Positions 3,881 to 56,168 of a DNA stretch of 64,000 nucleotides are shown piece after piece. Position 1 is the first letter of the stretch, and every line of letters begins with the position of its first letter. The stretch comes from Siphonodentalium dalli (taxonomy: Eukaryota; Mollusca; Scaphopoda; Gadilida; Siphonodentaliidae). The notes below the pieces were generated by a model. The model was not told the origin of the DNA. It saw only the letters and a list, made by a program, of their open reading frames with translations, and searched no databases. A program made the translations under genes and the position numbers. The stretch lies in the NCBI GenBank assembly GCA_032622095.1, contig CP136061.1, positions 4,520,505-4,584,504 of the forward strand, written 5' to 3'.

Positions 3881-4261
3881 TAAAATATGGATTGTAAATA
3901 CCATCCGAAAAAAGCTATGCCGAAACGGATTAAGGAAGACTACTAAAAGTGATCCATGGTATGCGGCTGTGACATAATTATGGAGATGACATTTCGGTGA
4001 TAATTGCATTAAAACGGGTCAAGTCACATCAATGTAAAATATGTACACGTATGCCCGCATCACATTCGACAAAGTCGCTGTGTGTTTCTATATACACAAG
4101 CTGGGCAACCCGTTGTTGCTCGGGTAAATATGTGTAACATACTAGGGCCCAACAAGTCATTTAAACTAATTATTAGTCACCGGAGGTAAACATCACCTAT
4201 TGCATGACATGTTTCGGATAAATTAATCTCAATAACATTACCTCTATCGCTTTAGTGGATA
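3881..4261. other. spacer, no gene seen
   Basis: Single-copy-looking sequence between the satellite and the foldback element. I see no coding region, RNA gene or repeat that I can name in it. Confidence 0.5.
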
Positions 4262-5770
4262 TAGTCCAGGATATATTGGTCGACCTCTGCACCCCCCCAG
4301 GACTTAACTTCACCCAACTAATTTTCTTCCTTAAGGTCTCCTCTAATTTTTTTCACTTGTTAACATTTTTTTTAAATGCACCAGGTCTCTTTGATCGCCG
4401 TTATAGTAAAGATGATGTCACATGCCGTCTTGTTTTCCGCTCGATTCGTTATGCTAATATACAACCCTTACAAATTAGCCAAAAATCGGACACCATAATC
4501 CAATATGGCGGCCAAGATGGCCGCCGAAATGTGAAAATATGCTATTTTTCTGACATGTTACCACCTTTCGACTGTCTCTGTTGGAAAATGTTAGAATGTT
4601 TGCGTCATGTTATACATTTATCATATAGAGGCGTCATTGGCGAACACATGGGGACCATAATATGCATTCACTGCTGGATATTTTTGTCCGATATCACGTT
4701 TTCCCAAATGCCGGTATCATAGGTCAAAGCCGAATCTCCGTTAATAACGCGATGTTATGTTTCGAATCAATGAATGTCATTGCTATTATAACAACACCCA
4801 TGCATATATATGTGCAGGAGATACTCAAGCTAGGATCCTCTTATACCTAAGTTGAGGAATATTTACCCAAATCCAAGATGACGGCCAAAATGGCCACCAT
4901 AAATAAAAAATCGCCGAAAATCGCCGATTTTAACATCAGTGAACATTTATTGTCATGAAAACTCCACACCTGCTTACTATTGTGAGTTGGGAACACTTAG
5001 GCGAAGAACTTTGCTTGTACCATATCCAAATAAAAGTCCCCCAAATCCAAAATGGCGCCCACAATGGCGGACATATTTTGAAAAATCACCGAAATTCCCT
5101 CATATTCACATCATTGGGCATTATTGTCGAGACAACTCCACCCATGCTTACAATTGAGTTGGAAATACTGAGGTGAGGTAATTACATCACATTTCATGCA
5201 AGAAATTGTTTTCCAAATCGAAGATGGCGGCCAAAATGGCGACCGAAATTTGAAAACAAGTCTACATTCCTTTACTTTCTTACGATGGGCGTTATTGTTT
5301 CGCGATTTCTATCCACCATTACATGTTGATATGGAATAGTAACATGAAGTATTCATTCATTCGGGTTTGGCAATTGATACTCACAGCCAAGATCGCTGCT
5401 AAATTGGCGTCTAGAAATTGAAAAGAAATCGATAATTTCACATATTAATTTCAACTTTTTGTCATAATATCGGTATGTATCCTCGTATCCTTCTGGAAAG
5501 ATGAAAAAACACCATTAATATCGCGATGTGGCATTTCGAAATCCAGTCTCCACTTAGCGCCGATAATGGCCGTAAGCGTAGGTGCGCCGAATAGTTATAT
5601 CAGAACAATTACCTGATAACAGATTCTGATTTGCCACGTCACGTCCATAATTATCTGGACCAGCTTCCATTTCTTTGTCTGATAAATCTAGGTCGCTCAC
5701 ACCGACAAAGTATTCACCACTTCCTGGGAGTAGGGTCCCTCTAATCATAACGTTTCAAACAATTCATTTT
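4262..5770 (+). repeat. left arm of the foldback element
   Basis: Left copy of the long inverted repeat. It is strongly similar to the right arm over the outer 1.35 kb and still clearly alignable to about 5770. Several short reading frames at 4255-5176 have near-identical counterparts on the minus strand at 8220-8865, which is how the inversion is seen at protein level. These frames overlap in different phases and lack domain signatures, so I do not call them genes. Confidence 0.85.
4500..5440 (+). repeat. about 175-bp diverged subrepeats with an AAGATGGCGGCC motif
   Basis: The left arm is itself built of diverged tandem subrepeats. Related cores begin near 4500, 4868, 5045, 5217 and 5385; the first gap is twice the usual spacing of about 170-180 bp. 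Each has the form AATCCAAGATGGCGGCCAAAATGGC followed by an AAATTTGAAAA-like stretch. The cores resemble the AAGATGGCGGC site of the factor YY1; that is a motif resemblance only. The right arm has the same layout in reverse. Confidence 0.7.
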
Positions 5771-7589
5771 CCGGTGTCTAGCTTACGATTTTAAATATTT
5801 GCTAAATATTATATTTGTCCGTCATCTTGAACTAGGAAGGCATATGGCCGATGAGTACAAGCTTACATAAGGTCATATCTATGTATGTGTCTCATACCCC
5901 ATGGGATAACGACATGTACACCTGGCGAACCAGTTAGCTAGTCACTTCTCAATAGATGGTTCGTCAACACACACTCAGCGAACGCATTGGCATATGTGGA
6001 CAACATCGACAGTGTTTCGAAGGTTGCTAGCTGTCTCATTCCATTGGACAGATGTCTATTGGCTAAAGAGAAGACCATAGTGTACAGACTACCCACACTT
6101 CTTTACCATTACCATTATCCGAAGCAAACTGTGTGACGCCCCGCAGTTGTCTCGTCGAATATCTCCCAGCAGACAAGAACAATGCTCGCGGTGCTAGTTT
6201 GTGGACATGCGCCATGATAGTGGGAATAAAATGGGCCACTGTATACACCACACCTACACCTGGTGTATGTTTAATATATCGAATGTCATGCGTGTCGGTT
6301 TTATTTGGTGTGGTAAGATTGTATTTCCACATCCGTTTCGAAGCCTTTCTGATTCAACTACGTACACTTTTGTCTGGATAATACTATGCTAGCCTCCCTC
6401 AAAACATGTCTTTATAGCATGAATATATGCGTGTTTTGTTATCCTCTCTCGCGGTTAGTGTCAGTATGTGGGCGGTATTATTCAAGAAAATGTCAGGAAC
6501 TGTTGTGCATTTATTTCACTATGTATTTAAAGAACAATTTACAGTCTCGATGGCAATGGCTGTGGACGTTGGGGAACGCGACCTTTATGATCATATAGCT
6601 TTATATATATAACTTTAGAATATAGTAGTTAATGTCTCGTGCAGGAAATGGTCGCAATGGTGATGTTACCAAGAAATCACTTGGTGTACCAACGTTTGTT
6701 GAACTGAATGCAAGAGCTCATCAACGTAACATTCCTCTGGATGTACTTCCCGTTGAACATTTCACCCTTTTGTTGATGGCATTTGTACTTTCTTGAACCA
6801 TACCACCCAGCGTGAGTATGACATACAAATGTATCAACCAACTGTCAAAGGTATCGCCTTTAAGACTACACCCAGTCTTGGTGGGGCTTATACAACAGTA
6901 GCCAATGGCATACTCCTGGTCCAGTTGTTTAAGAACGGCTTCCGAACGGATGGGAACATACAATCTTAGCATACAAGTAAAGCAAAGCCACACATGAGAT
7001 CCTGTCTGAATCTAAAACATGACAAAATAAGGGGCGGTGTAGTCATGGTCCAATTTCATTTCAACTATCATGACACATACCCAAAAACTAGCACCGTGTG
7101 TATTGTTATCATCTGCTTGGATCTGTTCGGTGAGACGATTGCTGGACGTCAACAAGCTTGTTCTTATGATCATGTTCAAGGAGTTTGGGTATGTTATGCA
7201 TTATGGTCTTCTACGCCTTAGCAGAAATGCATCCGTCAACTGTCGGGCTTTCAACATTCGAAGCCATGTACAGAAGTTGTCCGGGTACGTCAGTGCATTA
7301 GATGAGTATGTGAATTGATGAACCATATATTGAGAAGTGGCTGTTTGGGAAGATCACCAGGTGTGCACGTTGTTATCCCCATTAGGCCACCAAAGCTGAC
7401 AATACGCAGATAGATAGGTCCTTCTGAAAGCTAGTATACGCATCGACCGAATACCTTTATAGTGTATCGCACAAGATGACGCATATACCCCATATATAGC
7501 ATCTGAATTATACCATGAGCTATACCACGAATGCAGCTCGCTAAGAATTCCAAGCTTTCGAAACAAACACGTGAGCTGAACACCGGCAT

Positions 7590-9190
7590 ATGTATTGTTT
7601 GAAACATTCCGATTAGTGACACCCTTCTACAAAGAAGAGTAATGAACTGTTGTTGTGAGTGAGATAGATTAATCTGACGAAGAGACGGAAACGAGTCTAG
7701 ATAATGTTGAATGTGGCAATTCAGAATAAGCTCAGGTACTATTGTTTTGATTCTTGGAAGTCATAATATGACTATTCGGCGCACCTATATACGGTTACGG
7801 CCAGTATGAGCCCTTAGTGGAGAATGGATTTTGAAATACCACATCGCGATTGTGAGTTTTCATCCTTCCAAAAGGCTACGATTTACATTGGAACTAATAG
7901 ATGGCTTATATTATGTACCGTTTCGTTTATAAAAATCAATATTATGACATAAAGTTGAAATTAATATGTGATAATATCGGCTTCTTTTCAATTTCTGCCC
8001 GCCAGTTTGGCCGCCATATTGACTGTGAGTATCACTTACCAAACCCTAATGAATACTTCATACATATCAACATGTAATGGTGGATAGAAATCGCGAAACA
8101 ATAAGGCCCACCCTAAGAAAGTAAAGGAATGTATGCGTATTTTCAAATTTCGGTCACCATTTTGGCCGCCATCTTCGATTTGGAAAACCACTTCTTGCAT
8201 GAGATGAAAGGTAATTACTTCACCTCAGTATTTCCAACTCAACTGTACGCATGGATGGAGTTGTCTCGACAATAATGCCCAATGATGTGAATATGAGGGA
8301 ATTTCGGTGATTTTTCAAAATCTGTCCGCCACTGTGGGCGCCATTTTGGATTTGGGGGACTTTTATTTGGATATGGTACAAGCAAAGTTCTTCGCCTAAG
8401 TGTTCCCAACTTACAATAGTAAGCAGGTGTGGAGTTGTCATGACAATAATGCTCACTGTTGTTAAAATCAGCGATTTTCGGCGATTTTTTATTTCTGGTG
8501 GCCATTTTGGCCGCCATCTTGGATTTGGGTAAATATTCCTCAACTCAGGTATAAGAGGAATCCTAGCTCGAGTATCTCCTGCAAATATATGTGCATGGGT
8601 GTTGTTATAATAGCAATGACATTCATTGATTCGAAACATAACATCGCGTTATTAACGGAGATTCGGCTTTGACCTATGATACCGGCATTTGGGAAAACGT
8701 GATATCGGACAAAAATATCCCGCAATGAATGCATATTATGGTCCCCATGTGTTCGCCAATGACTCCTCTATATGATAAATATATAACATGACGCAAACAT
8801 TCTAACATTTTCCAACAGAGACAAACGAAAGGTGGTAACATGTCAGAAAAATAGCATATTTTCACATTTCGGCGGCCATCTTGGCCGCCATATTGGATAC
8901 TGGTGTCGGATTTTTGGCTAATTTGTAAGGGTTGTATATTAGCATAACGAATCGAGCGGAAAACAAGACGGCATGTAACATCATCTTTACTATAACGGCG
9001 ATCAAAGAGACCTGGTGCATTTAAAAAAAATGGCCGCCATGATGGACGCCATCTTGTCTGGAGTCTCTGCGGCCACTTTTTTTTCTTGTTAACAAGTGAA
9101 AAAAATTAGAGGAGACCTTAAGGAAGAAAATTAGTGGGGTGAAGTTAAGTCCTGGGGGGTGCAGAGGTCGACCAATATCTCCTGGACTAA
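7590..9190 (-). repeat. right arm of the foldback element
   Basis: Inverted copy of the left arm. Relative to it there is an extra stretch near 9030-9080 (another GGCCGCCAT/GCCATCTTG segment) and several small indels, so the arms have diverged since they formed or were assembled from variant subrepeats. Confidence 0.85.
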
Positions 9191-20878: not shown

Positions 20879-21852
20879 TACGAAATAAGTGTTTCCTGTT
20901 TAGTTAACATATATCGAACAAGAACACCGGGATACGGCGTGGTATGGCCCTAGAAGACCAATGGTGCCTAAGAAGGCTTACAATTCTACAGAGGGGATAA
21001 GAACATTTCTGTATTGCTCACATATGATAATATAAGTTTTAAGTTGACCCCCAGCTGTCCCATGACACTCATCGGGTCAATTTGAATCAATGTGAATCAA
21101 TGTTGCGGATGGCACATAGTAACATTTGTAAATAAATAGATCATTGCGCCATCCGCATCTAATTCAATAATGTATTATCGAGTAAGATGCGTGTTGTGTT
21201 CTATTTATGTTGTATTTGTTTTAAGGTCACTCTCACAGGTCAAAGACATGAGATGAAATGCTCTTCACTTTATTGCTATACATGTACGATGTGTTCCATC
21301 GTTTTAATTATATTCAACGTGGGGGAATAACTTCCGGTATAGACGTAAACAATCGATGCACATCGCTCTCCGAAATTTTCGAAAATAGTGTCTGTTCCCG
21401 GGTGTCTACCAGCCTGAATTGTCCAGGACCATCAATTTACTTATTCTAGCATGGATTGGGAATATTGTTTATCAGTTTTCGTGTGTGGTTTTTCGAGATC
21501 GGTATGTGACTTTTGAAATTTAATACTCTACCATGTCAACCTCGAACCCTCTAAGTGCACAATTCAGCCCAAAAACAGTGATTTTGAACACAAGTCCTCG
21601 AAGTCGAAAATGAAGTCCAGCGCCCAATTTAGGATGAATCGGATCCAATAATTCCTGTGTTTCTATTCAACTAATTAATTACAGTGTCATAAAGCGTATT
21701 CACTCATTATGTCGTGCAGCACAACTCACCACAACGGTACTCGTGACGTAGTGACGACTTACTATGCTTCGCCGTGAGAAAAAGTATATTGTCCAGTGAC
21801 AACATAATACATTATGCTCAGTATATCACAACAACAACTTTAATTAATCGAT
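20879..21852. other. leader region of the LINE and upstream flank
   Basis: Single-copy-looking sequence. At 20925-20952 it carries GGGATACGGCGTGGTATGGCCC, very like the arm of the 9447-9590 palindrome. A GCGGATGGC / GCCATCCGC pair at about 21112-21165 could form a hairpin. Somewhere here the 5' untranslated region of the LINE begins, but no promoter motif fixes the position. Confidence 0.45.
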
Positions 21853-23474
21853 ATGGCGACAAGCAATACTTCGACTGATACCGACAAACGGAGCCTACAC
21901 GATTGTCTGTCAGATTGGTATGACAGTGTTGAGTCATTCCAGTACACTCGGCAACAGGATGACAGCCTCAAAATATATGACAATCTCAAACCAGTTCTCG
22001 CATTCATAAGCTCAACTACGTACGATATATTCACGGCAACAATAATTGAATTCGTCGGAAATCAGGACAAATTATTAGAAACACTAAGGGAGAATATATT
22101 CACTCACGCCAAGTCAAAGCAATATTTCCCATATGAGCAATCGTCTTCGATGAAACAACGAGTTGTCCGAAATCAATCTGGAAACCATGTGATTGATCGA
22201 AATAACAGAAACAAGCGAATGTCTAATGACATTTATAATATAATGAAGTTCATGGTAGATGAAGACAGTGACTCCATAATCGATGTTATTAGCAAAGGTA
22301 GCCGAAGCAAAGTGTTGGTCGACAGTCAATAGCCGGAAATGTAACCATTCTAGATGAAGATGACACCTGTACATCCAGTATCCACAATTCATTAGTGAAA
22401 ATTCAACGCGACATTTCATGCATGAAAACAGAAAACGAAATTTTCCACAAAGACATCAATCAACGAGTTCCCAAATTAGATTCATCAATTGCTAGCCTGG
22501 AGTCGCGATTCAGTAAAATCGAGGAGAAATTACAAATAGTAAACGACGTCGAGAAGGCTAAAACAGACATAACGACGATAAACAAAAAAATAAAAGAACT
22601 GGACGAACAAATTGAATCAGATACACTGACCATCGAGCGAATACAAGATGACAAATATACGGGTGTAAATAAACTAAAGGGTGACATAATCCAAATAAAG
22701 TCTGATATTGGCGAAATAGTAAGCGGTCTTGGTGAGTTCCATAAAAAACAGAAAAGTCTGGAAGGTCAAGTTGCTACACTGAAAGATTTAGTGAATAAGA
22801 AAAACATTCAACCGACTCATGCATGCGACAACATGGTTAATGAAACAATTAAACAAAACGTTACTATAATGAAAGATGAATTCAGAAGCTTCACTGCAGC
22901 GACAACCAACAGTTTGCAACAGTTTGTTGAAGTGGTCGACAGATCAATGGGTGAGATGGTAAAAACACAACGTGACATGGCTAAATTAATGGAGATGGCA
23001 ATGAACTACAGTTGCGACGATAATGTTTCACACTCAGCACACAGTGAACGAGAAGACATAAACAGTGAACGTGAAGACATAAACAGTGAACGAGGAGACA
23101 TAAACAATATATCTGTTGAATCAGAAGTTGCACCCGAATACCCGAATCACAGTTATAAACAGGCACCACCTAAACAGGAAGTTCACAGAAACTATGACCG
23201 TCAGTCCCAAAGTGATTCCTATTTTAACAGAATGGATGGACCAGTCAAAACATCACAAGTATATCTCGCCGGTTTTGACGATTCCGTAACAGTGTTCGAT
23301 ATCAAGTCACACCTTCTCCATTACAAAATTCGGTTCACAGTCATCAGAATGTTAAGAGGTAACGCAGCTCGAATCAACATTTGTGACAATGATATCGACA
23401 TAGTCCTCGGTCCGAAATTCTGGCCAGTTGGTGCAACTTGTAGGATGTGGGTCCGCAAAGAACCAGAATTCTGA
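21853..23474 (+). pseudogene. LINE ORF1, coiled-coil RNA-binding-type protein, one frameshift
   Basis: ORF1 proteins of LINEs bind the element RNA as multimers and accompany it to the target. This one starts at an ATG at 21853 and is open for 159 codons in one frame to 22332. The reading then continues in another frame (open from 22302, first ATG later) to 23474, so a single frameshift lies between 22302 and 22320. The second part is rich in heptad-like Leu/Ile/Lys/Glu spacing (about 22440-22800), typical of a coiled coil. It then has a short acidic repeat (ERED INS repeated near 23045-23105) and ends in a compact domain (about 23260-23474) with a WPVGATCRMW motif, reminiscent of the RNA-binding C-termini of related ORF1 proteins. 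No CCHC knuckle is present. ORF2 starts 79 bp later. The function is inferred from position and architecture. Confidence 0.82.
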
Positions 23475-23553
23475 AATAATTATGTTCGAATATCGACTAT
23501 CATATACCATTCTTTAATGTAATGATTCCTGATTCTTTTCTTCTTTTCTAGCG

Positions 23554-26500
23554 ATGTCTAATGTGCGCCATCTATGTATATCATTATTGTTTGTATTCAT
23601 ATTCGATTACCGTACACGAAATCAATACCATACCAGCTTATCGTATCCCACCAAGCTTAAATATATGGAGAACATGACATTAAATTTCCATACCTGGAAT
23701 TGTACGGGAATTATGTCATCAGGTGCATATATCACAGAACTAATGAGAAATGGTCATTATGACATTATGGGTCTAAGTGAGCATTGGTTATACCAAACCA
23801 ATGTATATTTTCTCGGAATGCTGGGGTCCAATAATGAATATCATGCTGTCTGCGATTATAGCCAACAAGTTCCCATCCATACCATAAAGCCAGGTAGACC
23901 CAAGGGCGGTGTGGCACTAATGTGGAACAACAGGCTGTCACACTGTATATGTCCGCTTGACATAGCAGATGATCGCATCATCGGGATTCAATTAAAGCTG
24001 CCAGGTGGGAGCTATTTGTATATCTTCCAAGTTTACTTACCATCCACGAATTATCCCGCTGAAGAATATATAGCATATATAAATACGCTTAGAGATATAT
24101 GCGATATATATAAAATACACGGTAACCTCATCATAATGGGCGATCTAAATGGTAATTTCGATAAATCAGATAAGCGAAACTCAGCATTCATTAAATTTGT
24201 TAAAGCCCTTGAATTGAAATCAGCCAATTATGAGATATCGCCTCGAGCTACTTGTTTACCATTTGGCCAGAGAGGCAAAAATAACGGCACAATAAACGAC
24301 CATATATTGATACCTGATATATTCATACATTTTGTACGCAGTATTGATGTAATGGACGATAACACTATAGATGTGTCAAATCATCGTCCAATATCCGCAA
24401 ATATTTCTTTGCCCGTAGATGATCGCACCATCGGAGGGCTAGATGCTAATGCTGATGGTGGGATCGACTGGAAGCGAGTGAGATCTCACCCAGAAATAAT
24501 CGAAGAGTATCAGAGATATCTTGATACTGAAATTATCAAAGTAAAAAACCGAGACCCCAATTTGTATCGAATTGACGCAGTATGTAGATATGCAGAAATC
24601 GTACAAGCAATTGCAAACGCATCGGTTGCGTGTTTTCCTCGTAAACGTTTCAAACGAAATCTTAAAACCTTCTGGAATGATGAGTTAAAAGCGTTACACG
24701 AAAAAATGCGTGCACATCGGAGAAAATGGATAGAGTCAGGAAGACCCAGAGAACAAAACGAACTCGATTTCGGAACTTATGTTGAGTATAAAGATGCCAA
24801 ATGCAACTTTCGTAGACTCTATAGGAGAGCATCTCATAAACACATGACAGAAGTGGTAAACGAAATAGATGAACGCGCTGAGGTCGACCAAGATTACCTT
24901 TTCCGCATGTTAAACGCGAAAAAAAAAACTTACACGCTAACAAAAATCCATTGTTCGTACACAATGGAACTGTTCTTCGTGAGGAATCTGAAATAACTGA
25001 AGGTTGGGCGACATACTTCGAAAATCTCTACTCGCCGTTATATCAACCGAGCTTTGACTCAGTACAATTTAATCGTGTTAATTCTTTTGTTGACCGAGAA
25101 GTGACCAATACAAGTGCAAGTAAAATTGACAAGAATATCATATTCCCGGTAACAGCCAGCGAACTGGCTGATATTTGTCGAAATCTTAATCGCGGTAAAG
25201 CAGCAGGGTGGGATCTCATCGCAAACGAACATATTATATATGGTGGTCCTGTGTTAATCCAGGCGGTGTCAGACCTACTTACTGATATTATTACAGAACA
25301 GACAGTCCCTGAACATATGAAGCGCGGCGTTATTATTACTTTATATAAAGGAGGGTCCAAACCAAAAACAGATTATGATAGTTATAGAGCAATCACATTG
25401 ATGCCTGTACTTTACAAAATACTTGAAAAAATAATCCAGACTCAATTAGAGCGATATACACCATACTTACTCGAAGTTAACCCATTGCAGCACGGATTCC
25501 AAAAAGGAATAAGTGCAAACATGACCTCCTACTTGATGAGAGAATGCATTTCATACGTATCCGAAAGCAAACAAAATTTTTATTCGTGTTTCCTCGATGT
25601 GTGGAAGGCCTTTGACACCGTCTGGGTAAATGGTCTATTGTACAAACTTTACGAACGCGGGGTACAGGGACATTTGTTCACATTATTATACAACCTTTTG
25701 ACAAATGTATCATGTTCAGTTCGATACCAACATACTTCATCTCAGTGGTTTAAAGTATTACAGGGAGCTAGACAAGGAAGTATATTATCGCCATTTTACT
25801 ATATGATTTACGTAGACGAATTGATCAATCAATTAGCCAGCTCAGGATATGGACTACAAATGTTGTGCATAAATTGCACCAGCCCTACACACGCGGACGA
25901 TATGGTGTTATTGTCCCTCAGTAAAAAGGGATTACAAAAACTTTGTGAAATATGCGTTTCTTACAGTAACACATGGAGGTACAGATATAACCCCAATAAA
26001 TGTTGTATAATTGTTTTAATGAGACAAAAGCGAATTATACTCGTCAAAATCGCACATGGAATCTAGGGGAATCGCAGATCAGGGAGGATACGCGAACAAC
26101 TCATCTGGGGATACCACTCGATAAATACGATTTCAACGGTGCCTTTGTTGAAAATATTTGCGAAAAAACTAGAAGTACATTTATGATGCTCACAAATGCT
26201 GGTATTCATCCGGGTGCTATAACTCCAAAGAGTTGTTCGATTATCTACTCGTCTGTGGTACTTCCGAGGGGATTGTACGGTTCTGAATTACTTTGGAATT
26301 TGTGCCAGAATAACCGTGATCGTCTAGAAAGAACACACCGATTTTGCGTTAAATTTTTCCAGGGTCTACATACACGCACAAAGACAGAAATAGCCCTTGG
26401 GTTAGTCGGTCTGCCTCCACTCATGTCTTTAATCGATAAACTCAAACTATCATTCTTTGGCTCGCTGTGTAATCTGTCGCAAAACAAAACTGTTAAATCT

Positions 26501-27183
26501 ATTTTCTTAACCCATTTGTATCAATATGTCGTGGGGTGCTCAGAGATAAGTGATAAAAATTTCATAGCTGACATGATTACAACACTCCAGAAATATAACA
26601 TGGTCGACTACCTGATAACTTTTATTGATTTACACAAATTCCCGAATAAACTAACATGGAAAAATATATTGAGAGACAAATGGAAAATCGGGTGTTCTGA
26701 AGAGTGGACAGCAATTATAAATGGCGACAATAGACTTGCTCGTTTCGCTGCCATACAACAAGAATTAACCATGTCTCATCTTTGGGGAAAATGTCGATGC
26801 TTCCCAAAATATAAATCATCGTACACGCTTGTTGCTCGCCTTATGGCTATGTTACCTGGTTAGAAACAGGTATGTCCTCTCTGCAGTCGCGAACACAGCG
26901 ACGTTGTTAAACATACCATATGTGAATGCACGTCAATAACATCGGAGAGGAACCTTGTGGAATTCGACATTTTGAACAACTTTGATATCGAATTATACCT
27001 AAAATTCGATAAACTGAGTCCAGAATCTAAAACTCGACTTTTTCTTTCTGGATTATCAGATTTTATGACGATTCCACTGGAATATACGGAAGACCCAATT
27101 AATTTTTTTGTTAAAAAGTCCGCTGATCTATGGAAACGCTATGTTGACTTAATAATATTATCTGAGAATGCAACGAATTAAGC
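23554..27183 (+). pseudogene. LINE ORF2, endonuclease-reverse transcriptase, disrupted
   Basis: ORF2 nicks the target and copies the element RNA there. The first frame (23554-24996) encodes the endonuclease: N49 (TWNCTG), E76 (GLSEHW), Y161, D197/N199 (GDLNG), D249 (NDH) and H277 (SNHRP) all match the expected catalytic set. Within an A-run at about 24917-24928 the frame changes. The next frame (to 26066) holds the RT: GKAAGWD, LITLYKGG-like, the FLDVWKAFDTVW motif A, GARQGSILSP, and the HADDMVL catalytic motif. A second shift near 26010-26020 leads to a third frame ending in an in-frame TAG at 26861-26863. The same frame then continues for about 105 codons with CPLC...H...C (26873-26930), the usual zinc motif, to the final stop near 27181. 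Three lesions make it non-functional as read. Confidence 0.92.
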
Positions 27184-28778: not shown

Positions 28779-28784
28779 GCAAGG

Positions 28785-29252
28785 TGATGATGATAAGGCC
28801 CCCAGTTGGTGGTATTTCAGGAACGATAACTCTATCCGAAGTACACGACCTATATTCTCAGCAGTACTCCTGTTGGTGTTAGTCTAGACAGTTTGACCTA
28901 TATTCTCCGCCCACGCATTGCATCATGGTGTATGTGTATACCGGTTGGGCATGTCCAAAAAAATTCAAAAACTTCAAAAATTTCAAAAATTTCACAAATT
29001 TCAAAAAAATTCAAAAATTAAACAAAATTCAGGATTTAGTCATAAATGTGACCCGCCATATCAAATCCAGTCGGAAGTCGGGATTTTTTTATCCTGTGCC
29101 AATGCATTCTCTTATATATGCGAGTCGACAAGCCGCCGGCGGCGGCGGCGGCCGTAATGCGCATGTCAACGCCGCTGCAACCGGCGGCGGCGGCGGCAGC
29201 AACTAAATAATCCTATGGCATGCAAAGAAATTGGCGGCGGCGGCGGTGTTTG

Positions 29253-29304
<52 letters not shown>

Positions 29305-29411
29305 ATTGATATTAATATGTTTGCCAATAATTTACACATCCATGAACCTATCTGAAAACATTATGGTTCATTGTCAACATTTTTGACGAGTAATGGTCAA
29401 TATTTAGACAT
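28785..29411 (+). repeat. left terminal inverted repeat of the Bcl-2-like element
   Basis: In order from outside: a 160-bp unique-looking end; GGGCATGTCC; a run of 9-mers of TTCAAAAAC/T type (28960-29025); a GTGACCCGCCATATC block; (GGC)n tracts (about 29132-29153, 29181-29200 and 29232-29245); an AT run (29258-29300); and a block ending GTCAACATTTTTGAC. The innermost 25 bp or so (29387-29411) are an inverted copy of the last codons of the internal gene. Confidence 0.85.
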
Positions 29412-29534
29412 GCGTATGCCGCTCTCACCCCCCTCCCCTCCGCGCGCGCGCCAATTTCACCAAAGATCAATGTCGGCACATTTAACATCTAAAATTAGAA
29501 ATGAAACGTGTCGGAACACGTTAATATCATGCAT

Positions 29535-29582
29535 TTTGATTGGTTAGCTGGCTCAACATAATAAAGGGACTGCTGATATTTT
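29535..29582 (+). promoter_or_regulatory. candidate promoter of the Bcl-2-like gene
   Basis: A GATTGG box (inverted CCAAT) at about 29538 is followed by a TATA-like AACATAATAAAGG at about 29555-29567, 16-28 bp ahead of the ATG. Both lie inside the unique core, not in the arms. The TATA-like word is close to the ATG, so the leader would be very short. No experimental support. Confidence 0.4.
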
Positions 29583-30116
29583 ATGTCTGACGTAGAAGGG
29601 AACAAAAATAATAATCGATACACAGCTCAAGAAATTGAACAGTATGGAAGTTGGCACAGTTACGAAATATTTGATGAAAGTTATGTCAGACATATCATTC
29701 TGAGAAACGGCTTTCATTACCCAGACACTAATAACTTTTATTTAGAGTTAGATGAAATACGTGACTGTACCAGAAGAATACTTCAAAAGCTGGAAAATTA
29801 TAACATGTGGCTGTTAAATGAGCTGACAGGGAAATTGGACAGTTACGATAGGGATCATTTTCCCTATATATTTAGTGACTTGTTGGACAATATATTTCGG
29901 GAAGATGGCCCCTACACATGGGAGAGATTAATGGCTGCATTCCTGTTCACAGGAACAATGTGTTTAAAAGCATACAAAGACAACGACTTCTCATTGGTCA
30001 GCGAAATTATGCAATGGGCACACACTATCGTGACATTATACACTGACCAATGGGTCGAACGGGAAGGCAGTTGGGATAATTTCTTCCAGGAATGTCTAAA
30101 TATTGACAATTACTAG
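29583..30116 (+). CDS. Bcl-2-family-like protein, 177 residues
   Basis: Bcl-2 proteins control mitochondrial apoptosis by binding BH3 helices of partners in a groove built by BH1-BH3. Residues 108-130 (DGPYTWERLMAAFLFTGTMC and on) fit BH1: W113 and R115 sit where the family has the Trp and the Arg that salt-bridges the BH3 Asp, followed by the hydrophobic AFLFTG helix. Residues 157-168 (WVEREGSWDNFF) fit BH2: W157, G162, W164 and F167 are all in place. Residues 89-107 match the helix before BH1 (HFPYIFSDLLDNIFREDG), and 31-46 look like the BH4 helix. No convincing BH3 is visible. The usual BH1 Gly after Trp is Glu114. The chain ends nine residues after BH2 with no membrane tail. It is intronless, like virus-carried Bcl-2 homologues. 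The start is the first ATG after a CCAAT/TATA-like region. Pro- or anti-death activity cannot be read from sequence. Confidence 0.83.
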   Translation: MSDVEGNKNNNRYTAQEIEQYGSWHSYEIFDESYVRHIILRNGFHYPDTNNFYLELDEIRDCTRRILQKLENYNMWLLNELTGKLDSYDRDHFPYIFSDLLDNIFREDGPYTWERLMAAFLFTGTMCLKAYKDNDFSLVSEIMQWAHTIVTLYTDQWVEREGSWDNFFQECLNIDNY

Positions 30117-31140
30117 TCAAAAATGTTGACAATGAACCATAATGTTTTCAGATCGGTTCATGGATGTGTAAATTATTGGCAAACATATTAATATCAATTG
30201 TGTATATATATATATATATCCGCAAACGCCGCCGCCGCCGCCGCCGCCAATTTCTTTGCATGCCATAGGATTATGTAGTTGCCGCCGCCGCCGCCGCCGG
30301 CGGCCGCGGCGTTGACATGCGCATTACGGCCGCCGCCGCCGCCGGCGGCTGGTCAACTCGCATATATAAGAGAATGCACTGGCACAGAATAAAAAAATCC
30401 CGACTTCCAACTGGATTTGATATGGCGGGTCACATTTATGACTAAATCCTAAATTTTGTTTAAGTTTTTTGAAATTTGTGAAATTTGTGAAGTTTTTGAA
30501 GTTTTTGAAATTTTTGAAGTTTTTGAAATTTTTGAATGTTTTTTGAAGTTTTTGAAATACTTGAACTTTTTGAACTTTTTGAACTTTTTGAACTTTTTGA
30601 ACTTTTTGAACTTTTTGAACTTTTTGAACTTTTTGAAATTTTTTGGACATGCCCAACCGGTATACACATAGACCATGCTGCAATGCGTGGGCGGAGAATA
30701 TAGGTCAAACTGTCAAACCGACTAACACTATGTCGACTCGAAAAAATATAAGAGAATGCACTGGCACAGGATAAAAAAATCCCGACTTCCGACTGGATTT
30801 GATATGGCGGGTCACATTTATGACTAAATCCTGAATTTTGTTTAAGTTTTTTGAAATTTGTGAAATTTGTGAAATTTTTGAAGTTTTTGAAATTTTTGAA
30901 GTTTTTGAAATTTTTGAAATTTTTTGAAATTTTTGAAATTTTTGAAATTTTTGAACTTTTTGAATTTTTTTGGACATGCCCAACCGGTATACACATATAC
31001 CATGATGCAATGCGTGGGCGGAGAATACAGGTCAAACTGTCTAGACTAACACCAACAGGAGTACTGCTGAGAATATAGGTCGTGTACTTCGGATAGAGTT
31101 ATCGTTCCTGAAATACCACCAACTGGGGGCCTTATCATCA
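30092..31140 (-). repeat. right terminal inverted repeat, with internal duplication
   Basis: Inverse of the left arm, but longer because the module from the GGC tract edge through the 9-mer run and GGACATGCCCAACCGG to the GTCAAACTGTC block occurs twice (about 30365-30715 and 30750-31035). The inner copy has a longer TTTTTGAAC run (about 8 perfect 9-mers at 30563-30635). The innermost end overlaps the last eight codons and stop of the internal gene. Confidence 0.85.
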
Positions 31141-31430
31141 GCAAGGAGTGTAAACTAGAAAGTAATATGTTAATACAATAGGACAAGTTACTGACTTATG
31201 CAGAAATATATTGGATCAATTCCTCTGGTAGCAGAACAATTACCGGAGCGTTTGACCGACGGCTTGATATTCCGAAGGTCCGTTAGTCGGAAGGTTCAAT
31301 TGTTGGGTTGAAAATATACACTGCGAATACAGTCAAAATGATTCCATAGTCCGATATTCTGAGAGTGATTTGAATGAAGTGAAATAAATCAATGAAATAA
31401 CTAGAAATAACGAGACAAAGGGTCACATGC
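31141..31430. other. right flank of the element
   Basis: Begins with the target duplication GCAAGG (31141-31146). No gene seen. Confidence 0.5.
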
Positions 31431-34756: not shown

Positions 34757-34821
34757 GGGCTCTTCAACACGATCCAATAACACATACAAGCTTCTATCCA
34801 ACTGTTACATATTGTACTCAC

Positions 34822-35121
34822 CCTGGCAGTCAACTCCAGCGTCGTGCGAGTGGTAACAGATGAATGTCCGCGAATGGGAGCAATCCCATATTGCAGCCTC
34901 CTCCCCGGTACACGCGACGTCTCTCATCCAGATAGGTCCCGTACCTTGTCCGTAGGTTACTCGCCCTCTGGCGATGCCTCCTCGAAATCCCAGCATCTTG
35001 CACACGACAGATGCATCAGAGTCATCCCATCCCACGTCGCACACTGTTCCCCATTGGCCGTTCATATAGACCTCAACTCGACCAGATGTTATTATTGATC
35101 CACTAACTATGCGAATGTTTT
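34822..35121 (-). CDS. SRCR domain exon (partial gene)
   Basis: SRCR domains bind ligands such as microbial surface molecules in secreted or membrane receptors. Read on the minus strand, an acceptor (TTGCAG just outside 35121) opens a 300-bp exon encoding one full domain: the GRVEVYMNGQWGTVC start, GWDDSDASVVCKMLGF, GQGTGPIWMRDVACTG, WDCSH, and AGVDCQ. It closes at a donor (G/GTGAGTAC, intron from 34821). Six cysteines match the group-A pattern. The exon enters with two bases and leaves with one, so it is a symmetric phase 1-1 module. It follows the exon at 38416-38712 after a 3.3-kb intron. Neighbouring exons lie outside what I can recognise, so protein size and topology are unknown. Confidence 0.88.
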
Positions 35122-35204
35122 CTGCAACTGATAAAACACATCAATTGGTCGATTTCACTCGATGTGTCGCAGTTACGACCTCATGTGAACCGATGTGCAC
35201 CATT

Positions 35205-38265: not shown

Positions 38266-38415
38266 TCATCTTGGCATCTTAGTGATTGTCGTCCTGGCAA
38301 CGTTTATAACGTCATCATCAATATCGTCGTAATTTGTTTTCTCATTTTGTAGATTAGGTACACATGATGTGTGTTCCTTTATACATAAGTATGATGTATA
38401 CAATCATTAACTTAC

Positions 38416-38712
38416 CCGGACATTCCACCCCAGCATCCTGGGTGTGTTGACAGCTATTTGTTCCCCATCCGTTGTGATTGCAATCCCACACTGAAGTCTC
38501 ATTTCCAGCGCATGTGACTTCGTCCAGCCAGATTGGTCCCGTCCCTTGTCCATAGCTTCTGGCAATACCGCCTTGGAAACCAAGAGTCCTGCACACGATA
38601 GCTGCATCAGTATTATCCCATCCGTTGTTGCACACCGTTCCCCATTGGTCGTCCCTATACACTTCAACTCGACCAGATGCTGTACTATTTCCACCAACTA
38701 ACCGAATATCGC
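38416..38712 (-). CDS. SRCR domain exon (partial gene)
   Basis: Same type of module as 34822-35121 and, in transcript order, upstream of it. The acceptor is CATTTTAG just outside 38712; the donor is GTAAGT from 38415. The 297-bp exon encodes DIRLVGG, GRVEVYRDDQWGTVC, GWDNTDAAIVCRTLGF, GQGTGPIWLDEVTC, WDCNHNGWG and AGVECPG with six cysteines. It also enters with two bases and leaves with one. Similarity to the other exon is high (QWGTVC, GIAR, YGQGTGPIW shared), as expected from tandem domain duplication. No signal peptide or transmembrane exon could be placed. Confidence 0.88.
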
Positions 38713-40095
38713 CTAAAATGGAACACACATGAAGTCGTTTAGTATCAAGCAAGTATGTGTATGTATATTTATTTTGTTGCTATTATTTTTGTAATGTGTT
38801 GGCCGTGCGCTCTCATGTGTACACATATGTTGTAGATATTGCTAGACATCTACTTCTATTTATAACACGCCAATCAGCCCTCGGCCAATTGAAGAAATCT
38901 AATGAGGTTCGGTGACCGACCTTTATTTACTGTAAAATCTTTTAGTCGTCGCCTGTTCTATCAAACGGTCTGTCGTGATCATAATACAATTCTGTATTAT
39001 ATTCGCGGCGCAGAGCTTGATGACCAATTATATGCATTCCCGATCATTCAAACAAATAATTGGTTCAGCGAGGTGAGCATTACTAACATGGGCTGTGATA
39101 CCATGTTTTTCACAACAAGCAAATGGAGGGACCAAGCGACATGGAAAACAGGAACGAAACATCATGCCAAAGAAGATATAAACGTTAATAAAATGAAATC
39201 AGAACAGTTTGTAATAGCAAATATACTATACAAAATCTTCAGATCGATGGGGTGGTATATTCGGACGGATTGCATGGGCATTTGCTTTGTCGGGGAAATC
39301 TTGAAATTACTATCCTGAACAGTGGCAAATTTAGACCCCCACTCACCAACACAATAAAAAATGCAACCAACGACAGCCCGTTGTACAGCACAGGCAACAA
39401 CTAACAGACATTCAGAATAAAAAGGTCGATAACCGGATCCCATTGGATAACTTGCGTCGGTCGAAAGTGCTGCTTGTGATATTATAAATCCGGCTTCGGA
39501 TGTATATGTAATACATACATCCGATACGTAGAAATAATCACAATAGAAGAGAAGAGTAGTGGGATACTCTTTAATTAATCCACGATCAACACACAAATAG
39601 ATATAAATATAGTTCACTGAAATACTGAAGATGGAGCGCAAGGCGTTTTCCCGTGTGGATGTACACCAATGTATTGGTCGAGGGCGGTAGAATAACTGTA
39701 AACACATACTCCATTATAAGATATGTGACAATGCGTTGAAATGTACGACCCTGTACGACCCTGAATTCTCGTGATATATTATGGCAATACAGGTATAAAT
39801 TCCAGGTCATATGTGGTGGAAATTCAGTTCGTTGTTATCACGGATGACCTGATATACATTAGGCTGATCGGGGAAGAGGGGTTCCTAAATTTGGACCTCA
39901 CATCAACCACGGCGCCACGACCACTTCAAGACCCTTCCAGTCCGCAATTTCATTTCAATGCGATTTCGGCAGGAAGACAGTCTTGCCAGATTATGCCACC
40001 CCCCACATTATACGACAGAATTATCCATAATTGTCATCATTATTATGTAATATGTATGTGCAGGGACGTGGCTAGAGGGTCTCCGTTGGGGGTGT
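38713..40095. other. no gene seen
   Basis: Holds a 138-codon frame (plus, 38902-39318) and a 181-codon frame (minus, 39162-39707) that overlap each other. Neither shows a recognisable domain, so I leave both uncalled. Upstream exons of the SRCR gene might lie here but cannot be seen. Confidence 0.35.
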
Positions 40096-42098: not shown

Positions 42099-42440
42099 GG
42101 TGAACACTCATCTGCGCTGAACAGACCGCGGGAAAAATGTTGCGAAAGTATTTACTATGGGAGGTAATTCTATTAATAGTTCTAACAGAAGGAATTTCCG
42201 ATATTTTAATTAATAGTAAACGGACACCGCGGGATGGGTTTTTCTGAAAGCGTTTGGTGTTTAGTGAGAACTCGGCAACGATGGGTGATGGGACCCACCT
42301 CGATAGAAGTATTGCTACCTAAAACACACCGGGCGACAGTGTACTTGTCGCCCGGTCACCCGCGACAGCGTGATTTGTCGCCCGCCATGTGATGCGGTTC
42401 CAGCCAATAGAAAGTGGAGGTTGTGGGTAGCAGGGTGACA
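42099..42440. other. non-satellite island, possible 5' flank of the fragment
   Basis: Unique sequence between satellite blocks. It holds two GGGCGACA...TGTCGCCC hairpins (about 42329-42355 and 42360-42382). If the 41976-42098 fragment is the start of a gene, its promoter would be here; no TATA box is evident. Confidence 0.45.
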
Positions 42441-44148
42441 ATGAGGCTTATATAAAGGTATCTAATAACAGCATACTGAATCAGATGCCCACTGAATCAG
42501 ATGACCTATGACTAAACACATAATCAGAAGTGAACATTGAGGCTTAATAGTCTCTAATAACAGTATGCTGGAATACTGAATCAGATGACCTACGACTAAA
42601 CACATAATTAGAAGTGAACACTGAGGCCTATATAAAGGTATCTAATAACAGCATGCTGGTATACTGAATCAGATCACCTACGACTAAACACAAAATCAGA
42701 AGTGAACATTGAGGCTTATGTAAAGGTCTCTAAAAACAGCATACTGGCATAATGAATCAGATGACCTACGACTAAATACATAAACAGAAGTGAACATTGA
42801 GGCTTATATAGAGGTCTCTAATAACAGCATGCTGGCATACTGAATCAGATCACCTACGACTAAACACAAAATCAGAAGTGAACATTTAGGCTTATATAAA
42901 GGTCTCTAATAACAGCATGCTGGCATACTGAATCAGATGACATACGACAAAACACATAATCAGAAGTGAACATTGAGGCTCATATAAAGGTATCTAATAA
43001 CAGCATTCTGACATACTGAATCAGATGACCTACGACTAAGCACATAATAATCAGAAGTGAACAGTGAGGCTTATATAAAGGTATCTAATAACAGCATGCT
43101 GGCATACTGAATCAGATGACCTACAACTAAACACATAATCAGAAGTGAACATTGAGGCTTATACAAAGGTCTCTAATAAAACCATGCTGGTATACTGAAT
43201 CAGATCACATACGACTAAACACATAATCAAAAGTGAGCATTGAGGCTTATATAAAGGTATCTAATAACAGCATTCTGACATACTGAATCAGATGACCTAC
43301 GACTAAGCACATAATAATCAGAAGTGAACAGTGAGGCTTATATAAAGGTATCTAATAACAGCATGCTGGCATACTGAATCAGATGACCTACGACTAAACA
43401 CATAATCAGAAGTGAACATTGAGGCTTATATAAAGGTCTCTAATAAAACCATGCTGGTATACTGAATCAGATCACATACGACTAAACTCATAATCAAAAG
43501 TGAGCATTGAGGCTTATATACAGGTATCTAATAACAGCATGCTGGCAGACTGAATCAGATGACGTACGACTAAACACATAATCACAAGCGAACATTGAGT
43601 CTTATACATGTATAACGGTCTCTAACAACAGCATGCTGGCATACTGAATCAGATGACCTACGACTAAACACATAATCAGACGTGAACATTGAGGCTTATA
43701 TAAAGGTCTCTAATAACAGCATGCTGGCATACTGAATCAGATGACCTACGACTAAACACATAATCAGAAGTGAACATTGAGGCTTATATAAAGGTCTCTA
43801 ATAACAGCATGCTGGCATACTGAATCAGATGACGTACGACTAAACACATAATCACAAGCGAACATTGAGTCTTATACATGTATAACGGTCTCTAACAACA
43901 GCATGCTGGCATACTGAATCAGATAACCTACGACTAAACACATAATCAGAAGTGAACATTGAGGCTTATATAAAGGTCTCTAATAACAGCATGCTGGCAT
44001 ACTGAATCAGATGACCTACGACTAAACACATAATCAGAAGTGAACATTGAGGCTTATATAAAGGTCTCTAATAACAGTATGCTGACAGACTGAATCAGAT
44101 GACCTACGACTAAACACATAATTAGAAGTGAACATTGAGTCTTATAGT
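42441..44148. repeat. 88-bp satellite, block 3, with trimeric higher-order repeats
   Basis: About 19 monomers. A variant set recurs as a group: CAGCATTCTGACATAC at 43004 and 43271 (267 bp apart), and GACGTACGACTAAACAC at 43561 and 43831 (270 bp apart), that is three monomers per higher-order unit. Variants with ATAATAATCAG and TATACATGTATAACGG keep their place in the unit. Confidence 0.95.
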
Positions 44149-52243: not shown

Positions 52244-52331
52244 TATGGTACATCATATAATTATTGTAACGTTGAACTTAATGATCAACTTGGTGGTTGC
52301 TCCATTACGTGTCACGTACGATCATATTATA

Positions 52332-54596
52332 AAGGTCTCTACTAACAGCATGCTGGCATACTGAATCAGATGACCTAGGACTAAACACATAATCAGAAGT
52401 GAACATTGAGGCTTATATAAAGGTCTCTAATAACAGCATGCTGACAGACTGAATCAGATGACCTAGAACTAAACATATAATCAGAAATGAACAGTGAGGC
52501 TCAAATAAAGGTCTCTAATAACAGCATGCTGGCATACTGAATCAGATGACCTACGACTAAACACATAATCAGAAGTGAACATTGAGGCTTACCCAAAGGT
52601 CTCTAATAACAGTATGCTGGCATACTGAGTCAGATGACCTACGACTAAACACATAATTAGAAGTGAACACTGAGGCTTATGTAAAGGTCTCTAAGAACAG
52701 CATACTGGCATACTGAATCAGATGACCTACGACTAAACACAAAATCAGAAGTGGACATTGAGGCTTATATAAAGGTCTCTGATAACAGTATGCTGGCATA
52801 CTGAATCAGATGACATACGACAAAACACATAATCAGAAGTGAACATTGAGGCTTATATAAAGGTCTCTAATAACAGCATTCTCGCATACTGAATCAGATG
52901 ACCTACGATTAAACATATAATAATCAGAAGTGAACAGCGAGGCTTATATAAAGGTCTCTAATAACAGCATGCTAGCATACTGAATCAGATGACCTACGAC
53001 TAAACACATAATCAGAAGTGAACATTGAGGCTTATATAAAGGTCTCTAATAACAGTAGGCTGGCATACTGAATCAGATGACCTACGACTAAACACATAAA
53101 CAGAAGTGAACACTGGGGCTTATATAAAGGTCTCTAATAACAGCATGCTGGCATACTGAATCAGATGACCTACGACTAAAACACATAATCAGACGTGAAC
53201 ATTGAGGCTTATATAAAGGTATCTAATAACAGCATGCTGGCATACTGAATCAGATGACCTCCGACTAAACACATAATCAGACGTGAACATTGAGGCTTAT
53301 ATAAAGGTATCTAATAACAGCATGCTGGCATACTGAATCAGATGACCTACGACTAAACACATACTCAGAAGTGAACAATGAGGCTTATATAAAGGTCTCT
53401 AATAAAAGCATGCTGGTATACTGAATCAGATGACATACGACTAAACACATAATCAAAAGTGAGTATTGAGGCTTATATAAAGGTCTCTAATAACAGTAGG
53501 CTGGCATACTGAATCAGATGACCAACGACTAAAACACATAATCAGAAGTGAACATTGAGGCTTATATAAAGGTATCTAATAACAGCATGCTGGCATATTG
53601 AATCAGTTGACCTACGACTAAACACATAATCAGAAGTGAACATTAAGGATTATACATGTATAACGGTCTCTAATAACAGCATACTGACATACTGAATCAG
53701 TTGACCTTTGACTAAAATACATAATCAGAAGTGAACATTGAGGCTTATATAACGGTATCTAATAACAGTATGCGGACATACTGAATCAGATGACCTACGA
53801 CTAAACACATAATCAGACGTGAACATTGAGGCTTATATAAAGGTCTCTAATAACAGCATGCTGTCAGACTGAATCAGATGACCTACGACTAAATACATGA
53901 TCACAAGTGAACATTGAGGCTTATACATGTATTACGGTCTATAACAACCGCATGCTGGAATACTGAATCAGATGACCTACGACTAAACACATAATCAGAA
54001 ATGAACAGTGAGGCTCAAATAAAGGTCTCTAATAACAGCATGCTGACATACTGAATCAGATGACTTACGACTTAACACATAATGTGAAGTGAACATTGAG
54101 GCTTATACATGTATAACGGTCTCTAACATCAGCATCTTGGCATACTGGATCAGATGACCTACGACTAAACACATAATCAGAAGTGAACATTGAGGCTTAT
54201 ATAAAGGTATATAATAACAGCACGCGGGCATACTGAATCAGATGACCTACGACTAAACACATAATTAGAAGTGAACATTGAGGCTTATATAAAGGTCTCT
54301 AATAACAGTATGCTGGCATACTGAATCAGATGACCTACGACTAAACACATAATCAGAAGTGAACATTGAGGCTTATATAAAGGTCTCTAATAACAGCATG
54401 CTGACAGACTGAATCAGATGACATACGACTAAAAACATAATCACAAGTGAACATTGAGGCTTATACATGTATAACGGTCTCTAACAACAGCATGCTGGCA
54501 TACTGTATCAGATGATCTACGACTAAACACATAATCAGAAGTGAACATTGAGGCCTGTATAAAGGTATCTAATAACAGCACGCTGGCATACTGAAT
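52332..54596. repeat. 88-bp satellite, block 4
   Basis: About 26 monomers of the same satellite. The last monomer is cut after CATACTGAATC at 54596, where the LTR element begins, so that element most likely landed inside the array. Confidence 0.96.
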
Positions 54597-54933
54597 CCGG
54601 TCCGAATCGACATCTCACGACATACCATCCGGTTACAACTACAGTGTACTGTGCAAAATAAATATTCGGGTCAATCTCTAGATACATGGTCATATTGGCA
54701 TAGCTTCCCGGCTTATTTTAGTGATTTCCCAAAACTCATAATAAATTCTGTTGTTGCTGCAATTCCGCTTAAATTTCCTCGCAAATCGCCAGAATCGTGC
54801 CGATCAGCACTTATAAAGTTAGTAGCCCGACACGGCGTTTACAAAACTCCGCGTGAGCTTGGACATCCATATCAAAGGAAATCATCCCACACGAAACCAA
54901 CAACAAGTGACTAAGCAAATTAATTAAACTTCA
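54597..54933 (+). repeat. 5' LTR candidate (left edge uncertain)
   Basis: The interval between the broken satellite monomer and the primer-binding site should be the 5' LTR. It ends CTTCA (CA at 54932-54933), as LTRs do. The left edge is unclear: a TG appears at 54643 (TGTACTGTGC) but not at 54597. An AATAAA is at 54657. An 87-codon frame (54651-54914, no ATG at its start) spans most of it. Confidence 0.5.
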
Positions 54934-54951: not shown

Positions 54952-55001
54952 AATAAGTGGAATATTCAAACCAAGATAGTTTATTTAGTCGCAGTTTTAC
55001 C

Positions 55002-56138
55002 ATGGAACGAGAACGACACCTCCACGCGGCCAGTAATGCAAACATGCACGACATTAATATACCAAATCCCTCCTTTCAAATGCCGAGCGCACAAGACACA
55101 CAGAATACCCTCATATCTCAATTAACGCGAGAAATAGGTCAATTTAACGTGACAATGCGTGAGACTTCTGCCGCCACACATTCACAGGCCACAGTATCTG
55201 CCATTATAGGTATGAACGCAATGGTTACATCATTTGATGGCAAACCATCAGAATTTTTAAATTGGATGCACGAAATTGAAAAATATTCTTCGACACTTGG
55301 GGCAGAGGATGAAACAATAATTAAAATAGCCGCCCAGACAAGTCGTTCATCTGTTTCCGAATTCGTGCAACGATACATCAATGACAATACGGTTAACGGC
55401 ACACTAACGGTCACATGGCCTGATTTGAAAGCGCAGTTGCGATCCCGTTTCAGCGCGATAAGTGACGCACCACAGGCTCTGGCCATGTTGCGATCATTAA
55501 AACAAACACACCAGGAAACACTACCTATGTTTGCAATGAGAATTAGATCACTCGCAAACACTGCTTTTATTGATGAAATAAATACACAGGCGGTACAAAC
55601 ACAATTGGTAACATTTTTTGCGGATGGCATACGCGATGACCATATCAAATACACTTTAATTAAAGATGACCCAACGTCGCTCGACCGTGCCAACGAGATA
55701 GCAATGAAACAAATGAACATTAAACAGAGGTTCAAACTTCGCTATGGTGATAGAACATCGAGATCAAATGAACAACACCAAATACACGACTCCTTCCCAC
55801 AACCCATGGAGGTTGACCATTTTAGGCGACGTCCCATACTATGGAAACCGCGCAATAATATATCCGATAGCTCTGCAACTAACAAACCAGTGCACCGTGC
55901 AAATCATCTCTCAAACCCACCATTCCGAATGCCACCAAGATTTCAAAACACTAACTTTAATAGACAAAACAATGACATCCGCCAGGATCGGATAAACAAT
56001 ATAGACTACAACTCAAACCGGCCAAACTTCCCAAATCAAAGGAAACGCCAGTTCTGCACACTATGTAAGATGAACAACCACGATATACAAAATTGCCGAA
56101 GACGGATCGCCAATAACAAACAATATTTAAACAGGTAA
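55002..56138 (+). CDS. Gag polyprotein, 378 residues
   Basis: Gag forms the particle shell and binds the element RNA. I start at ATG 55002 (TTACCATGG, good initiation context); the frame is open a little further upstream but has no earlier ATG. Residues 1-75 are polar and probably disordered. About 75-240 is an alpha-helical capsid-like region (FDGKPSEFLNWMHEIEKY, then TWPDLKAQLRSRFS and ALAMLRSLKQ), the pattern of retrotransposon Gag families. An Asn/Arg-rich stretch leads to one zinc knuckle, CTLCKMNNHDIQNC (C-X2-C-X4-H-X4-C), at about residues 346-359. The stop at 56136-56138 lies 3 nt after a slippery heptamer, so most ribosomes would finish Gag here. Confidence 0.92.
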   Translation: MERERHLHAASNANMHDINIPNPSFQMPSAQDTQNTLISQLTREIGQFNVTMRETSAATHSQATVSAIIGMNAMVTSFDGKPSEFLNWMHEIEKYSSTLGAEDETIIKIAAQTSRSSVSEFVQRYINDNTVNGTLTVTWPDLKAQLRSRFSAISDAPQALAMLRSLKQTHQETLPMFAMRIRSLANTAFIDEINTQAVQTQLVTFFADGIRDDHIKYTLIKDDPTSLDRANEIAMKQMNIKQRFKLRYGDRTSRSNEQHQIHDSFPQPMEVDHFRRRPILWKPRNNISDSSATNKPVHRANHLSNPPFRMPPRFQNTNFNRQNNDIRQDRINNIDYNSNRPNFPNQRKRQFCTLCKMNNHDIQNCRRRIANNKQYLNR

Positions 56139-56168
56139 GAATGTCTTTGAAGAAGCCGCAAGGACATT
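56126..56168 (+). promoter_or_regulatory. programmed -1 ribosomal frameshift signal
   Basis: TTTAAAC at 56126-56132 is read as T TTA AAC in the gag frame, the canonical X XXY YYZ arrangement. After a 7-nt spacer a stem of nine pairs follows: AATGTCTTT (56140-56148) with AAGGACATT (56160-56168), one G-U pair, 11-nt loop. The pol frame is -1 relative to gag and is open from 56117, so it overlaps gag across this site. This would give Gag-Pol in a minor fraction of translation events. The alternative is reinitiation at ATG 56141, 2 nt past the gag stop. Confidence 0.75.

Follow-up and report, generated by a model that had tools for sequence, protein, structure and literature searches.

The 64,000-nucleotide stretch of Siphonodentalium dalli DNA analysed here (the window) contains, at 28785-31140, an inverted-repeat element carrying a gene of the Bcl-2 family, whose proteins govern the survival or death of animal cells. 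The element probably represents a non-autonomous mobile foldback element of a large Maverick/Polinton-related family, which would have originated by snap-back copying, be driven by a helper and retain its Bcl-2 gene as a protection against cell death. Its limits were set from the sequence and its inverted repeats; it begins with (TGA)3TA, ends with TA(TCA)2 and is flanked by two copies of a 6-bp target-site duplication, GCAAGG, read directly at 28779-28784 and 31141-31146, so that the duplication-bounded inverted-repeat structure first recognized in a sequence-only reading of the window is confirmed. Other copies carry (TGA)2; in the window copy the left end (28785-28795) has one triplet more than the right, a difference that slippage during replication of the ends would yield.

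The left arm (28785-29411, plus strand) contains AAATTTCAA-type 9-bp tandem repeats, GCC/GGC repeats and a TATATA stretch. The right arm (30092-31140, minus strand) is longer because of an internal duplication (30364-30593 and 30746-30975, 89%). The outer portions of the arms (28785-29031/30897-31143) are 96% identical, the middle portions (29013-29278/30203-30468) 92% and the inner portions (29284-29411/30092-30219) 98%. The segment at 29260-29411 (minus strand) is an inverted relic of another Bcl-2 copy, that of the left arm, comprising its 3′ end and the sequence downstream of it, and is 96% identical to both arms of another element in the same genome, L023, with both arms of which window positions 29440-30219 also align (95.5%). 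Because both segments match the L023 arms, the window copy reads as a collapsed palindrome from which most of one Bcl-2 copy has been lost. The gene had been described as the sole cargo of the element, a description that needs qualifying since the remnant indicates that a second copy once faced it. The promoter-like region also attributed to the gene was not established as a promoter; a TATA-like arm motif occurs in 10 of 22 loci, at no constant position before the gene.

The Bcl-2 ORF (29583-30116, plus strand) starts with ATG, comprises 177 codons and requires no intron. Its product matches Pfam PF00452 over residues 64-164 with 51.4 bits (E 1.7e-13; curated cut-off 31.4 bits), the protein of L023 scores 53.7 bits against the same profile, and the top PDB sequence matches of the window protein are Bcl-xL (E 1.4e-8), which secures the identification originally made from motifs. 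In a Foldseek search with a low-confidence model, the best 50 of 419 rows (E up to 10) were all Bcl-2 family structures (best E 1e-3); Bcl-named models among the best 50 models of a viral fold library were weak (E 0.11 and 0.89). Two segments, TWER...FLFTG and W..REGSWDNF, are taken here to be BH1 and BH2, respectively. Both signatures are therefore present as first read, but alignment with PDB sequences reveals that BH1 retains the arginine of NWGR and has its glycine replaced. The intronless 177-codon gene likewise stands as an open frame, with the exception of its N-terminus: residues 33-177 are conserved among copies, but residues 1-32 lie in a reading frame unlike that of many other copies, and only the former can be trusted. 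A BH4 helix at the N-terminus was rejected on the same grounds. In L023 and L017 the ORF encodes 203 amino acids, with a stop 25 codons beyond that of the window copy. A hydrophobic C-terminal tail or membrane anchor is absent from both the window protein and the longer version (best 19-residue average 0.03 in the last 30 residues). Relatives of the protein were found neither in 5.8 billion proteins, whether queried with one sequence (14 candidates) or with an alignment (7995 candidates scored, E up to 10), nor among viral contigs; this absence is weak evidence since such searches depend on shared short words.

A protein search of the same 2.2-Gb genome (150 of 307 first-look candidates scored; best 150 of 153 matches taken) placed the listed matches, some of them fragments, in at least 97 clusters (joining distance 6 kb) on all nine contigs, a dispersal clearly at odds with a single host copy in a conserved place. 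Of these matches, 107 reach 430 nt or more and 92 of the 107 contain no stop; 25 clusters held ‘-+’ pairs and one a ‘--+’ arrangement, the paired copies being separated by 315-322 bp in 17 of 26. A Bcl-2 profile search (150 of 151 candidates scored) gave 128 matches, sorted by eye into 123 of the mobile family and five putative host matches, or about 25 per host match; the latter are those missing from the mobile-protein match list, and one has stops. At L026 a Bcl-2 copy adjoins a run of N (1-4379), and an apparent 1781-aa frame there was discarded as merely this run.

The sequence-only reading had inferred mobility and proposed a search for further copies with different 6-bp duplications, and such copies are present. 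The sample comprised 22 independent sequences, namely the window copy and L009-L030 without the duplicate L015, of which 13 possess both ends and a 6-bp duplication of their own, exact in 12 and with a mismatch in one, as in Maverick/Polinton elements; 12 of these insertions carry Bcl-2 and one (L029) an ATPase. When left and right flanks were mixed between insertions, agreement was seen in none of 156 pairs. Duplications of this length were not found at L010, L013, L014, L018, L020, L025, L026 and L030, and that at L027 is weak. The L024 element lies in a satellite array with a repeat of ∼174 bp, and when its flanks are joined with a single CACGGC all 600 bases align to 20 satellite stretches, and only one of the 20 alignments is gapped close to the junction; the array thus provides an exact empty site. 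The joined flanks of L011 have a spanning match (71%) to a repeat family at window positions 5063-5315, and those of the other 10 of the 12 insertions tested have none in the sequence at hand. The family matched by L011 is that of a second large inverted-repeat element in the window (4293-9159), whose arms of ∼1.2 kb are 83-99% identical in pieces and which has no recognisable gene. Given the 97 dispersed clusters, the 13 insertions with different duplications and the exact empty site, the element family is mobile.

The same evidence bears on whether a host Bcl-2 family has instead grown by segmental duplication, with the inverted repeats incidental. Local duplication has occurred, L015 being a duplicate of the window insertion together with its flanks 53.6 kb away (matching pieces 96.6-99.2% identical), and tandem arrays are found at L010 and L018; for the family as a whole, the 13 different duplications and the empty site refute this explanation, which is scarcely credible. 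The repeat unit of the arrays, which lie on two different contigs and are 95.5% alike over 7.5 kb, spans ∼3.0 kb and combines Bcl-2 with an ATPase remnant and a single terminal repeat. The segment duplicated at L015 extends into the first of two minus-strand frames with scavenger-receptor cysteine-rich domains (34805-35140 and 38354-38779). Elsewhere the window contains a LINE-type element whose endonuclease and reverse transcriptase domains lie in frames that overlap (21844-26863), a Ty3/Gypsy retrotransposon in which gag (393 aa) and pol (1585 aa) are both long open frames (54957-60874), and one 88-bp satellite in three blocks (1-3855, 42438-44146 and 52328-54597).

Among the elements read, the most frequent form is an almost perfect palindrome of 5.4-6.1 kb with one outward-facing, intronless Bcl-2 gene per arm, so that the earlier notion of a 2.36-kb package moving with one gene is upheld as regards movement but not as regards the usual unit. 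Short forms of 2.2-2.5 kb, each with its own duplication, were also found (L012, L019 and L028). Identity between the two arms of a palindrome, measured in five, is 97.7-99.9%; when arms from different elements are compared, it is 91.5-96.9% for sequence outside Bcl-2 and 99.4-99.8% for Bcl-2 itself. The ends are TGATGATA, a repeated TGA triplet, in 13 elements and L015, partly by construction since the script used for target duplications sought the TGA motif; arm boundaries found independently of the motif gave the same ends in most elements printed.

Non-coding sequence beside the gene is ∼99% identical between elements; Bcl-2 therefore exceeds its surroundings in conservation by a narrow margin only, and much of the intactness of the ORF is explained by recent spread. 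For 18 of 31 aligned copies, dN/dS was 0.37 over pairs and 0.35 against a majority sequence (pooled counts), and rose to 0.62 when each distinct change was counted once (13 synonymous, 35 nonsynonymous); the majority-sequence counts rest on a majority string of 438 nt of the Bcl-2 core, of which the pairwise count is independent. Purifying selection on the mobile gene is thus suggested, although weakly. Such even conservation of gene and surroundings, the foldback anatomy with internally repetitive arms and the presence of a Bcl-xL-like host gene would all fit an ordinary cut-and-paste or foldback transposon, of no specified superfamily, that took up a processed host Bcl-2 by chance and has no use for it. 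The one readable host exon is a typical Bcl-xL (E 3.7e-35 against PDB), but this best host exon is just 28.6% identical to the window protein over 77 aa, and any capture of that gene was consequently not recent. The host exon diverges from the mobile family directly after GGW in BH2, the position at which known Bcl-2 genes carry an intron; the mobile gene reads straight through this point and is accordingly intronless there. The open frame in most long matches and the virus-type ATPase of sister elements, described below, also argue against chance capture, which is judged improbable. That a putative anti-apoptotic action is the reason for the presence of the gene in the element can be proposed only tentatively, the replacement of NWGR by TWER in BH1 and the non-hydrophobic C-terminal tail being features that speak against a simple assignment of this kind.

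Sister elements connect the family with virus-like elements. L029 has homologous ends, its own duplication (AATGAA) and a C2H2 + ATPase gene in each arm, and in both arms the ATPase passes the Pfam cut-off for Pox_A32. L041 and L043 resemble L029 with deletions, L030 has one ATPase copy, and the hybrid L044, which was read without its outer ends, has one arm with the ATPase and one with Bcl-2; in these four the ATPase was assigned by similarity, L030 alone scoring below the Pox_A32 cut-off. The A32-like packaging ATPase of Maverick/Polinton elements is in this way found in sister elements and is absent from the window copy. In the unit of L010, Bcl-2 is followed by the 5′ portion of the ATPase gene, a junction, the 3′ portion of that gene and the terminal repeat, in this order. 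Because this unit and L044 join the two genes, Bcl-2 and the ATPase are members of one element family. L042, chosen for its unpaired end, has one terminal repeat and a tandem repeat, with neither ATPase nor Bcl-2.

A genome search with the ATPase gave 3907 first-look candidates, and all 110 that were scored matched; these 110 fall into 76 clusters, of which 34 are paired. A count by eye puts more than half of the scored matches in an open frame of 574 aa. ATPase copies may number in the thousands and constitute a very abundant young family with no visible replication genes. Protein relatives of the ATPase number 243 at E 0.001 or better, the named organisms among the best 120 of the 243 being bivalve molluscs with the exception of one bacterial bin, and in gene models of Mya and Mytilus the ATPase is fused to a chromodomain tail; these relatives would by themselves point to a probably molluscan host. 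The packaging-type ATPase, the snap-back shape and the distinct target duplication of each insertion would also be expected if an exogenous Maverick- or adinto-like virus had left its defective genomes in the germ line in separate integration events, with no transposition from copy to copy. The thousands of ATPase first-look candidates and the structured subfamilies look more like long-term genomic amplification, however, and neither Bcl-2 nor the ATPase found a match among viral contigs, which makes independent viral integration a quite remote prospect.

Descent from a Maverick-type parent, the origin first raised from the length of the target duplication, is supported but not proven by the homologous ends, the 6-bp duplications, the A32-like ATPase and the element uniting both genes. 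Polymerase and integrase genes were sought in the elements, and PolB genes also across the genome. PolB ORFs are absent from the elements for which ORFs were listed (window, L023, L017 and L029), and an integrase ORF was not seen in the same four, part of whose ORFs were profile-scanned. The genome contains many open-frame PolB genes (149 matches, 69 of 1596 candidates scored), but none of the 69 scored PolB places is within 120 kb of the 110 scored ATPase places. As helpers these PolB elements were rejected: when ten PolB loci and two stretches upstream of such loci (L031-L040, L045 and L046) were compared with the elements of the window, L023 and L029, no sequence in common was found. The open PolB frames (L031-L040 and L046) fall into two groups of ∼952 aa and 1312-1330 aa, and one is preceded by a 585-aa frame. 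Ginger2 was also discarded, as TGTNR ends and RTATAY targets would be expected and the ends here are TGATG with varied targets. Because no helper was found in the elements read or among the scored PolB places, the family is labelled non-autonomous and Maverick-related and is not filed as Maverick.

Under the favoured reading, that of a helper-driven, Maverick-related foldback element, the linear, protein-primed genome of a virus-like parent would have folded back during replication so that one end was copied back on itself, giving a palindrome with the same genome end twice. An integrase acting on the ends alone would allow such palindromes to integrate and spread, a full-length helper supplying both integrase and polymerase in trans. 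Bcl-2 would be a former accessory gene of the parent; in vertebrate Mavericks the core genes are bordered by accessory regions, according to the available text of PMC8097293. It might have been retained because it keeps cells alive while the element replicates in them, and in the window copy an internal deletion would then have removed most of the Bcl-2 gene of one arm. A more specific version of this proposal is possible but unlikely: the palindromes would be genome-resident ‘snap-back satellites’, derived from Mavericks and devoid of replication genes, that persist through Bcl-2 in both arms as an aid to host-cell survival during helper replication, in which case a selfish element would have disseminated an anti-apoptotic function across the genome of an animal. 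If the favoured reading is correct, a complete Bcl-2 gene on a small palindromic DNA element at about 100 places would make cell-death control a mobile cargo, Maverick-type elements would give rise to defective satellites within the germ line, and hosts would have ready-made copies of Bcl-2 available for co-option.

Large viruses are known to encode apoptosis blockers, and viral Bcl-2 proteins reside in large viral genomes. The Bcl-2 proteins of herpes- and poxviruses resemble the present case as a Bcl-2 fold on a parasite, and no close sequence relation to them was found. With Maverick/Polinton elements and adintoviruses the family shares 6-bp target duplications, long terminal inverted repeats, a short repeated end motif and, through its sister elements, the A32-like packaging ATPase. 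The elements read here differ in that they show no polymerase, integrase or capsid gene, are palindromic, measure 2-6 kb versus 12.7-24.6 kb, and carry Bcl-2. The end triplet is also distinct, being TGA here and AGT in vertebrate Mavericks, for which (AGT)2//(ACT)2 ends and 6-bp duplications are described in the portion of PMC8097293 consulted. Long, internally repetitive inverted arms are a feature of foldback-type transposons and are possessed by the elements here. As presented in the accessible text of PMC3573991, Galileo and Drosophila Foldback share with the present family these long repetitive arms and structural instability. The present family is set apart by the virus-type ATPase of its sisters, the complete gene in its arms and its 6-bp duplications. 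Target duplications of Galileo and Foldback have other lengths. The literature searched yielded no description of Bcl-2 as cargo of a palindromic or Maverick-related DNA element, and ‘bcl’ is absent from the main text, as available, of PMC11071296 and PMC11071308. A BCL2-like motif in transposable elements has already been published, together with a BIR motif, for the giant Gypsy-like Burro retrotransposons of planarians (PMC6431247, in the sections seen); Burro is an animal transposable element in which the motif belongs to the polyprotein, thousands of residues long, of an LTR retrotransposon, in contrast to the stand-alone gene in a DNA palindrome described here. A parallel in shape is the snap-back defective genome of AAV, in which, in the part of PMC8235507 available, one portion of the viral genome is likewise folded on itself, although these genomes occur in exogenous virus particles whereas the palindromes of S. 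dalli are integrated and dispersed.
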